Source: Leptolyngbya sp. DLM2.Bin15 | GTDB lineage: Bacteria > Cyanobacteriota > Cyanobacteriia > RECH01 | Direction: 5' to 3' | Length of the DNA stretch: 45,060 nt | Assembly: GCA_007694125.1 (NCBI GenBank) | Contig: RECH01000280.1 | Location: 1-45,060, forward strand | Part shown: positions 36,727-41,593 of the stretch, in pieces | Layout of the letters: each line of letters starts with the position of its first letter | Position numbering within the stretch: the first letter of the stretch is position 1 | Translations under genes and position numbers: made by a program | Notes under the pieces: model-generated | Databases searched by the model: none | What the model saw: the letters and a program-made list of their open reading frames with translations, nothing else | What the model was told of the DNA's origin: nothing

Positions 36727-38228
36727 TACAGGCGATAGAACAGTTCTACAAAGAAGTTTTAAAAAAGAGGCAAGTGCGGTTGAGATCCCAGGACCATGGG
36801 ACATGTTGTGGGCAGCAAAGCTCTAGAGCGATCGCTGCCGAGGCTGGATGAGCCTGCAGATCTCCTTCGACCTAAGCGTAGAGATTGCTCACGGCAACCA
36901 TGACCTCATGAATTATCTCAAATATTTGTGACTGTTATTAGAGACTTTTATGAGAGACGTTTCAGCAAGGATGCTTCCAAACATCATCCTGATTGTGACA
37001 TAAGACCTCCCCCTCACCGGGTGGCTTGCGCCTATCAACGTGATAAGAAACCGTTATGAACCGGCGATTCATGGGGAAGAGGCGAGTGGATACCCACGGC
37101 GATCGCTGGCCGTGCTCCTATTAATTGCGAATCATCGCAACCCTTGATGTCTAAGGTATGGAGGCTCTGGGATGCCGCCACTAGAGGGGTTCCTCTAGCC
37201 CGATTTAACCTGCCTGAGGGCTGGGATGAATGGGTGCGCCGGGATTTTCTAGGGATGCGATCGCTCCCCTAGAAAGCTTTCCTGGGTCGAGGCATAGCCC
37301 TGAAAAGATATATTTATTAACACTATTAAGCTGAAGCGATCGCTTATTTGTATAGATTTACAACTAAAAGCAACAAACAATGAATCAATCTAACCTAATG
37401 TTGAACCCACTTTTGAACGCAAGAAACCGGGGCAGAGGCTTGGTACTATTAGAGGCAGATCATCGGAGCTTGTGAGTTAAATGTCGTCTAATGGTTTTTC
37501 ACCTCTTAGATTGAGTTGAGTCCTTGCCTCCCAATGATCATCTTCTCATCGTTAGTTGCCTTAAAGGATGTTCAATTAGTGCTTAGATGATAAAGGCAGA
37601 CGTTAATCGCTGGGTGAAATGGTGAGCATAAAATGCATCTAATGAGCTTCATGCACCTTAGATGACTTTAATCTTCACAATTGGACAGTTTTGATAGTAA
37701 GGCTGGTGACAGGGCGATCGCAATCATACGAAGCCCCCCAATCTAAATGTGTGAATGTGTGAGCATCATAACCTCGCCTGTCTTCGGTGAAGCTTGATCG
37801 TTGACCCGTCATTCCTAAGTTTTAGTTTTCTTTTGCTTAGGCTAGCAGTTAGATGTACTCAACATGGTTTCTTGTTGAGGCGGTAGGTGCTGTTTAGCAT
37901 TCAGCGGGATATCAACAATGCAACTGGGCAGACCATGGCTCTATCGAAAGAAGGTCGGTTTGTCGAGGCATTGATCCCTCTTACCCCCTATCGCTTTGCC
38001 GGTCATCCCTGGTTCGTACATCCAAGAATGGCTGTATGATAAGTCTGGATTATTTTTCGCATAAACAAGAATCATTTTGCTTTATATTGTCAAACCTGAT
38101 CCGCCACCTGTATTCTTAATCTTGGGAATTTTAAGGTGCTTTTCTGAATAATTAAAATCGGCCATCCCGTCGATGATGTCAGAAAAAGTTTTGGAAGTTT
38201 TGTCAGTTTTCTTTGTGGGAGACAAGAG
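36727..38228. other. 1.5-kb gene-free divergent region between CO2-uptake and carboxysome operons
   Basis: No coding frame is supported on either strand. Contents seen: a perfect 7-bp, 4-loop hairpin CTAGAGG-GGTT-CCTCTAG at 37181-37198; a 9-bp dyad TTTCTAGGG/CCCTAGAAA at 37246-37275 around a HIP1 site; an ATTAA-N5-TTAAG sequence at 37316-37330, close to the ATTA(G/A)-N5-(C/T)TAAT motif reported for RbcR; and two related TCTAA...TTAGA dyads at 37481-37515 and 37632-37667. From about 37300 to 38228 the DNA becomes AT-rich. The ccmK2 leader ends with GGGAGACAAGAG before the ATG. Both operon promoters must lie here. Confidence 0.6.
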
Positions 38229-38681: not shown

Positions 38682-39023
38682 ATGTCAATTGCAGTTGGAA
38701 TGGTAGAAACGCTAGGTTTCCCCGCTGTTGTGGAAGCCGCTGATGCGATGGTCAAGGCTGCTCGGGTCACCTTGGTGGGCTACGAAAAGATTGGTAGCGG
38801 TCGCGTGACCGTGATTGTGCGGGGCGACGTCTCTGAAGTGCAAGCGTCTGTGGCTGCCGGTATCGAGAATGTGAAGCGCGTCAATGGCGGTCAAGTTCTC
38901 TCCACCCACATCATTGCTCGTCCTCACGAAAACCTAGAGTATGTGTTGCCGATTCGCTACACCGAAGCGGTGGAAGCATTCCGGGAGAGCGTCACCGGTA
39001 TCCGTCCGATGAACCGTCCATAG
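38682..39023 (+). CDS. ccmK1: Carboxysome shell protein CcmK1
   Basis: 113 residues, a second BMC paralogue nearly identical in the core to the first gene, with the same KIGSG pore and [16 protein letters not shown] block. The extra 11-residue C-terminal tail ([12 protein letters not shown]) is the usual mark of CcmK1. A GGAAGGGAG ribosome binding site lies upstream. Facets are likely mixed with CcmK2. The order K2-K1-L-M-N matches Synechocystis. Confidence 0.93.
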
Positions 39024-39031
39024 ACCTAACA

Positions 39032-39082
39032 CAGCTTATTAAGGTGTGTGGGATGGTAGTCAGCGCTCAAAAAGATCCGAGG
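39032..39082 (+). pseudogene. Decayed copy of the ccmL 5' end
   Basis: The 51 bases between ccmK1 and ccmL repeat the first codons of ccmL at an offset of 58 bases (compare 39090-39140). Over 39041-39082 I count 35 of 42 identical positions, and most differences fall on third codon positions of the ccmL frame. The copy would encode KVCGMVVSAQKDP, where ccmL has KVCGTVVSTQKDP. Its start codon is lost, and because 58 is not a multiple of three it is out of frame with ccmL. It looks like a remnant of a second ccmL or of a partial duplication. Confidence 0.75.
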
Positions 39083-39086
39083 TTCG

Positions 39087-39389
39087 ATGCAGATTGCGAA
39101 GGTGTGCGGTACGGTCGTCAGCACTCAAAAAGATCCAAGTTTAACTGGGGTCAAGTTCTTGTTGCTCCAATTGCTCGATGAACAGGGAAACCCGTTACCC
39201 GAGTATGAGGTGGCTGCAGATACGGTGGGTGCTGGGGTTGATGAATGGGTGTTGGTGAGCCGAGGCAGTGCTGCTCGACAGGTGAGCGGCAGCGAATCGC
39301 GTCCACTGGATGCCTTAGTCATTGGCATTATCGATACCGTGAGCCTAGACAATCGCTTGTTTTACAGTAAACGCGACTCGGATCGCTGA
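39087..39389 (+). CDS. ccmL: Carboxysome vertex protein CcmL
   Basis: 100 residues. CcmL forms pentamers that close the twelve vertices of the icosahedral shell. Typical parts are MQIAKVCGTVVSTQKDPSL, GVKFLLLQLLDEQG and GAGVDEWVLVSRGSAAR, then DALVIGIIDTVSLDNR. The usual Arg at position 7 (KVRGTVV in many relatives) is Cys here. It starts 63 bp after ccmK1, with a decayed copy of its own 5' end in between. Confidence 0.96.
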   Translation: MQIAKVCGTVVSTQKDPSLTGVKFLLLQLLDEQGNPLPEYEVAADTVGAGVDEWVLVSRGSAARQVSGSESRPLDALVIGIIDTVSLDNRLFYSKRDSDR

Positions 39390-39577: not shown

Positions 39578-41593
39578 ATGGTAGCTCATTACTCCGCTAC
39601 TCCCCCAACACCATGGTCTAAAAGTTTGGCACAGCCTCAAATTCACGACACGGCCTACGTTCATTCATTCGCCAATATCATTGGTGATGTTTGTATTGGA
39701 GCTGGCGTAGTGGTCGCTCCAGGGACCTCCATCCGGGCGGATGAAGGGCACCCATTTTTTATTGGTGAGGGCAGTCGTGTTCAAGATGGTGCGGTCATTC
39801 ATGGCTTAGATCAGGGTCAAGTGGTGGGAGATAATGACCGCTCCTACTCCGTTTGGATTGGGCAACGAGTCACCCTTACTCACATGGCGCTGATCCATGG
39901 CCCAGCCTATGTTGGGGATGATTGTTTTATCGGATTTCGTTCCACCCTGTTCAATGCTCGCATTGGTCAAGGCTGCATCATCATGATGCATGTGTTGATT
40001 CAAGACGTGGAAATTCCCCCAGGAAAATTTGTGCCATCTGGTTCTGTGATCACGACTCAGCAGCAAGCCGATCAGTTACCGGATGTGCAAGAAGCCGATA
40101 GTCGCTTTGTTCAACATGTGGTGGGTGTCCATGAATCCGTGCGATCGCATCCCCATCAAGCGGAGAAAGCCGTGCAGGTATCTACCCTGCGCCGTGAGTT
40201 AGAGCAGGTATACCAAGCAAGTGGTGATAGTGCTGACAGGGTCAATGATAGCGATGGGCAGGTACAACGTATGAAATTGAGTCCAGAAGTAGTAGAGCAG
40301 GTGCATCAACTGTTGACTCAGGGCTATCGCATTAGCACTGAGTTTGCCGATGCGCGTCGATATCGGATTAGTTCGTGGAAGACAGGGCCGTCGATTTCTG
40401 CCGGACAGCGATCGGAGGTGATTGCTGCCCTAGAGCGGTGTTTGGATGAGCATAGCCAAGAGTATGTTCGCATGATTGGCGTGGATACAGGCTCCAAGCG
40501 GCGAGTGGCAGAGGTGATGTTGCAGCGGCCGGGCGATCGCAATGGCAACTCCGCCCCTTCCCAAGATCGTCGCTCCACCTCCAACTATTCGCCCTATCAG
40601 TCTGGGCAGGCGATCGCTTCTCAGCCTTCCGCGCCCGTCTCTGGCGATATTGCTGAGCAGGTGCGTCAGCTCCTATCCCAGGGCTACCGGATTGGTATGG
40701 AGCATGTGGATGCTCGCCGTTTCCGCACCGGCACGTGGAAGAGCTGCGCCCCCATTCAGTCTACGCGCTTGAATGAGGTGATGGCTGGCTTGGAAGCCTG
40801 TATGGCAGACCATGCTGGGGAATATGTACGTCTGATTGGCATTGATACCCAATCTCGGCGACGGGTTTTGGAAACGGTGGTGCAGCGCCCCGGTGAGGCA
40901 CCGAAGTCGGTTGCCAGCGGCGGACAGCGCAGCAACGGTGCCAGCTATGCATCGGCACCCTCCGCAAGCAGTGCGGGCCTGAGCCGTGAAGTGGCCGATC
41001 AAGTCCATCAACTCTTGTCCCAGGGCTATCAGATTGGCACAGAGCATGTAGACGCTCGCCGCTTCCGTACAGGAACGTGGAAAAGCTGCTCGCCCATTGA
41101 AGCTACTCGTCCTAACGATGTGATCGCCGCATTGAACGCCTGCATGGTCGAACATGCTGGGGAATATGTGCGGATGATTGGTATTGATACTCGGTCGCGC
41201 CGCCGGGTGGCAGAGGTGATGATTCAACGGCCAGGCGATAGCGCTCCCAAGGCTTCTGCATCGAGCAGCAGCAGCTATACGACCCGATCCTCCTCGTCTT
41301 CCAATAGCTCGGCATCGCGGTCGTCGTCAACATCCGTAGGTGCTGATGTGGCGGATCAGGTGCGGCAGTTGCTGTCCCAGGGCTATCGAATTGGCATGGA
41401 GCATGTGGATGCTCGGCGCTTCCGCACGGGCACGTGGAAGAACTGCGCGCCAGTTCAATCTACCCGTCCTGATGATGTAATGTCAGCCCTGTCTGCCTGC
41501 ATGGCGGAGCATCAAGGTGAATATGTTCGCCTGATTGGGATTGATACCAAGTCTAAGAAACGGGTTGCTGAGATCATGGTTCAGCGTCCATAG
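39578..41593 (+). CDS. ccmM: Carboxysome assembly protein CcmM with four Rubisco small-subunit-like domains
   Basis: 671 residues. The N-terminal gamma-carbonic-anhydrase-like left-handed beta-helix spans about residues 20-190, with zinc-ligand positions His75, His102 and His107 retained. Four SSUL domains follow at about 232-318, 356-438, 470-552 and 589-671, joined by Ser/Pro/Gln linkers. SSULs bind and condense Rubisco. SSUL2, 3 and 4 each have the redox Cys pair spaced 18 residues (390/408, 504/522, 623/641); SSUL1 has Gly at the first position. I chose the ATG at 39578, because AAAAGGG is 7 bases upstream, over that at 39572. An internal ATG at 40271 after GGGCAGGT could give a short 440-residue form carrying only the SSULs. 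Confidence 0.95.

Follow-up and report, generated by a model that had tools for sequence, protein, structure and literature searches.

Organization of the ccm locus

The window analysed here, a stretch of 45,060 nt from Leptolyngbya sp. DLM2.Bin15, carries genes in the order ccmK2-type (38229), ccmK1-type (38682-39023), ccmL (39087-39389), ccmM (39572), ccmN-like (41831) and double-BMC ccmO-like (42816). Beyond the Pfam families, the gene names at this locus are putative; the ccmN-like gene, which is without a Pfam match, presumably merits its name by its position. The ccmK1-type shell gene is an open reading frame on the forward strand that encodes a BMC domain (Pfam BMC, E 1.1e-28) and ends with a TAG stop codon at 39021-39023. 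Its downstream neighbour ccmL, on the same strand, is intact and encodes a carboxysome vertex protein of 100 aa (Pfam EutN_CcmL, E 4.9e-34). This gene is an ordinary full-length member of the CcmL/EutN pentamer family (PF03319); the protein shows no difference from that family, and the unusual part is the ccmL leader only. Further upstream, positions 38140-38219 gave a sub-threshold Rfam match to the pntA sRNA (28.2 bits, the gathering score being 54; E 0.13), which is probably due to chance.

The leader consists of 5 nt (39024-39028) that are a residue of the ancestral ccmK1-ccmL spacer, followed by 58 nt (39029-39086) in which the ccmL start is present a first time, in decayed form; the second copy is the beginning of the live gene (39087-39144). 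Two further features on the forward strand lie wholly or partly within the dead copy. One is the motif GAGGT (39079-39083), a candidate Shine-Dalgarno sequence from which the live ccmL could be translated. The other is an out-of-frame open reading frame of 42 codons plus stop (39053-39181), which overlaps ccmL, was opened by a T9M change in the dead copy and has an AAGG upstream of it (39041-39044 region); its function is putative.

A repeat of the ccmL start precedes ccmL

The initial annotation of this sequence had reported a match between 39041-39082 and 39099-39140, with 35 of 42 positions identical at an offset of 58 bases, and had taken the upstream stretch for a duplicate ccmL start that has decayed. 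Both the match and this reading hold. The repeat can be extended to 39032-39084 and 39090-39142 (42 of 53 identical) and, when counted from the start codon, to 39029-39086 against 39087-39144 (43 of 58 identical). A local alignment of the 63-nt spacer with nucleotides 1-100 of ccmL scored 31, as compared with a mean of 7.3 (sd 1.2) and a maximum of 15 among 5000 dinucleotide shuffles, and the similarity between the two adjacent, directly oriented copies is therefore well above chance. The second AAGGTGTG and the second AAAAAGATCC that had been noted near ccmL are indeed duplicated there. The concern that the contig might be misassembled can be set aside, as the repeat is present in three separate genome assemblies.

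The upstream copy occupies the ancestral position of the ccmL start

The reading frame of the dead copy starts at 39029, 5 nt past the ccmK1 stop codon. A ccmK-type gene was found upstream of ccmL in 108 of 109 distinct loci, and the spacer between the two genes in these 108 loci is exactly 6 nt in 60, at most 12 nt in 87 and more than 30 nt in only 11, three of which belong to the genus studied here. It is also 6 nt in G003, the sole other genome of the family that was examined, and the 5-nt residue in our leader is collinear with it. A DNA match to G003 (positions 3-132 of a query of 201) passes without interruption from ccmK1 to the remnant, so that it is the remnant, and not the live ccmL, that is collinear with the ccmL start of G003. 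Since the remnant lies at the usual position of the ccmL start and is collinear with that of G003, it is the original start of the gene, now dead, and the gene works from a new start, provided by the second copy. Among the loci with long spacers we note a separate case in family f19 (L024 and L027), where ccmK1 and ccmL are about 470 nt apart instead of the usual 6 nt and the spacer holds no trace of a ccmL duplicate.

Comparison of the spacer with sister genomes, suggested together with the original observation, revealed similarity in all of them: the same 63-nt spacer with the repeat is found in 3 of 3 genomes examined in the genus (loci L001, L002 and L003) and is absent from the one other family genome, G003, our family sample being four genomes in all. 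We also searched 388 genomes of the class with the remnant. Among the matches listed, only those in the three genus genomes were full-length or nearly so; the best one outside the genus (G096, E 1.7e-4) falls inside an ordinary ccmL start, as does the match in G272, and no donor lineage was found among the matches listed from these 388 genomes. A recurrent feature of the operon is ruled out as well, as 18 other spacer rows of at least 17 nt (some of them a single locus taken from two collections) contain no repeat of their own ccmL, the lowest unadjusted P being 0.037.

Decay of the upstream copy

The former start codon of the copy has become ACA in the present genome; both sister genomes have AAG instead. 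All three copies carry the changes I3L, T9M, T13A, S18R and L19F, with G8E in one of them and K15Q in two. Most of these changes affect residues that hardly vary in functional genes: among 93 distinct CcmL starts (126 loci), T9 is found in 92, T13 in 92, S18 in 85 and L19 in 89, position 3 is occupied by I in 77, by V in 15 and by L in 1, and the M9 and A13 of the copy occur in none. These counts are biased towards invariance, because the motif by which CcmL starts were recognized fixes some of the first 13 residues (positions 6 and 8, and loosely 3, 7, 11, 12 and 13); positions 9, 15, 18 and 19 are free. The collection comprised 154 loci, from which we excluded 25 without a start fitting the motif, namely 14 loci at which the remnant matches some other part of a genome (L115, L117, L118 and L120-L130) and 11 ccmL loci missed by the motif (L031, L037, L038, L059, L076, L099, L101, L132, L138, L140 and L152). 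L111-L113 were excluded as repeats of L001-L003.

A comparison of L001 with L003 shows differences at 8 of 63 positions in the spacer, 6 of 303 in ccmL (all of them third codon positions) and 13 of 342 in ccmK1. The changes in the copy between these two genomes fall on first, second and third codon positions in 2, 2 and 3 cases, a distribution without bias, but with few changes. We found no functional second ccmL in the four family genomes: the copy lacks a start codon, the remnant stops in codon 20, and each genome (4 of 4) has a single ccmL match. The loss of the start marks the copy as non-coding today, a reading to which the codon positions, with so few changes, add weakly. The view that the duplication is not a fresh one is borne out.

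Other patches of divergence among the sister genomes lie nearby. L002 and L003 are near-identical over most of 3.3 kb and yet show many differences in the 3' half of ccmK1 (38787-39023). The bases of ccmK1 that differ among the sisters agree with ccmK2 in some cases but not in others, a hint of paralogue conversion or local recombination. The three genomes also diverge more strongly at 40437-40886 in ccmM, within Rubisco-small-like repeats, which possibly reflects conversion among these repeats.

Origin of the copy

The simplest reading of the copy's origin is a tandem duplication in place. We propose, with a probability of about 0.8, that a tandem duplication of about 58 bp arose in an ancestor of the genus, presumably in a single step, and that later decay of the first copy left the ccmL start 58 bases downstream of its former position. 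The duplicated segment would have comprised the first 19 codons of ccmL and part of codon 20. Because 58 is not a multiple of 3, the first copy would have yielded only a frameshifted product and the intact ccmL frame would have started at the second copy; the first copy would then have lost its ATG and decayed neutrally. As in other short tandem duplications in which one copy decays to a pseudogene fragment, the copies are direct and adjacent, one of them intact and the other with a lost start and changes at invariant residues. The present case differs from the usual one in that the upstream copy, at the ancestral position, is the one that died, so that the start of the gene now lies 58 bp further downstream. 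What remains is an old scar, of the known type left by short duplication and decay, and not a new kind of system.

The codon positions of the differences bear on a second scenario, in which a tandem duplication covered all of ccmL and was followed by a deletion from codon 19-20 of the first copy to the second start codon. In this case the remnant would be the 5' end of a genuine second gene, possibly under protein selection for a time. The 15 differences between the two copies over 58 nt are distributed as 8 third, 4 first and 3 second positions, and by inspection 5 of the 7 differences within the 42-nt stretch are at third positions, one of these five being non-synonymous. The third-position bias described in the initial annotation is thus present. 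The past protein selection on the copy that was deduced from it is not required, because the live ccmL alone adds silent changes. Among the inferred ancestral differences, 7 of 10 are at third positions, as compared with about 4.5 expected under neutral decay of the copy together with silent change in the live gene; this excess is not significant (P about 0.06-0.08), and we regard it as suggestive, not decisive. It therefore keeps the whole-gene scenario alive, as an unlikely one: it needs two events, with a deletion that happens to end at the second start codon, and it sits poorly with the single ccmL match in each of the four family genomes and with the non-synonymous changes at invariant residues in the remnant.

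The remnant is most similar to the gene that it precedes. Of the ccmL genes compared, the one nearest to the 54 bases of the copy is its own, by small margins over the next best (12 versus 15 differences in L001, 13 versus 14 in L002 and 12 versus 13 in L003), and the proposal that the fragment might lie closer to the ccmL of another lineage was not borne out. The copy and its own ccmL also have in common the residue pair C7 and D16, which is found in only 2 of the 93 distinct CcmL starts, its own included. A CcmL tree of 52 loci places the genus together with G003 (support 97/90), and we thus found no conflict between the CcmL phylogeny and the placement of the organism of the kind that xenologous replacement would produce; the CcmK1 tree was too poorly resolved to add anything. 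A replacement in place, in which recombination immediately 3' of the native start brought in a foreign or divergent allele of ccmL and left that start as the remnant, would account for the location of the remnant at the native position and for a repeat that begins at the start codon, but is very improbable given the grouping with G003, the shared C7 and D16, and an M9 and A13 seen in 0 of 93 starts, and the earlier idea of a divergent second ccmL or of recombination between alleles is by the same evidence unsupported and not needed.

Translation of ccmL

A short tandem duplication, as favoured here, would also have altered the context in which ccmL is translated, and the region of the ccmL ribosome binding site has changed, as had been anticipated. 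One of the tetramers GGAG, GAGG or AGGA is found at -20 to -4 of ccmL in only 6 of 109 distinct loci, and three of these six are those of the genus. The GAGGT is present in 3 of 3 genus genomes and spans the S18R change of the dead copy. Its DtoStart, calculated by hand, is 12, which lies in the range of 11-21 that one study applied to Synechocystis (PMC6847405). Among 8 other distinct loci with a spacer of more than 30 nt, one of the three tetramers occurs in 1 only (L019). The last 15 nt of the spacer, at the junction, contain no changes, which is not significant (P = 0.07). A Shine-Dalgarno role for GAGGT is a post hoc claim and should be read as such.

The usual ccmK1-ccmL arrangement resembles that of operons with termination-reinitiation coupling, in that the distance is short, mostly 6 nt, and Shine-Dalgarno-like tetramers are rare there. 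In gene pairs of E. coli and Haloferax, one study found coupling by reinitiation to be near zero by about 20-38 nt (PMC10666635); the 63 nt in the present genomes exceed these distances. Among the open-licence papers searched, we found none that links ccmK, ccmL and translational coupling. It is possible that ccmL translation, formerly coupled to that of ccmK1 across a stop-start distance of about 6 nt, was replaced by independent initiation 63 nt downstream, from the GAGGT motif that would have arisen inside the dead copy. A fuller version of this scenario, which we hold to be doubtful, is that the frame-breaking duplication made a functional leader out of dead coding sequence and moved ccmL from termination-reinitiation to GAGGT-dependent initiation, possibly modulated by the overlapping frame, with a new vertex-to-facet protein ratio in the carboxysome as the result.

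The leader might, compatibly with the duplication, be a selected control element in which the AAGG-ATG frame (39053-39181) captures ribosomes and lowers the output of CcmL. All three genus genomes share the ATG, the AAGG and the length of 42 codons, and CcmL is a minor shell component, with 37 subunits per carboxysome in S. elongatus according to one report (PMC6635877). We nevertheless consider selection of this kind improbable, since the remainder of the copy evolves fast (8/63) and most of the frame, together with its stop, is inside ccmL and maintained by ccmL itself. A structured RNA regulator finds no more favour: the predicted fold of the leader, for which a folding analysis had been recommended, is no better than that of shuffled sequence (z = +1.12), and the spacer has no Rfam match up to E = 1.

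Significance for ccmL and the carboxysome

The ccmL leader of this genus provides a clear case, visible from sister genomes, of a start codon that was moved by partial duplication. If translation has in fact not changed, the repeat is a neutral scar. If it has, these genomes would allow the importance of close ccmK1-ccmL coupling for the pentamer/hexamer ratio of the carboxysome to be tested in a natural setting.
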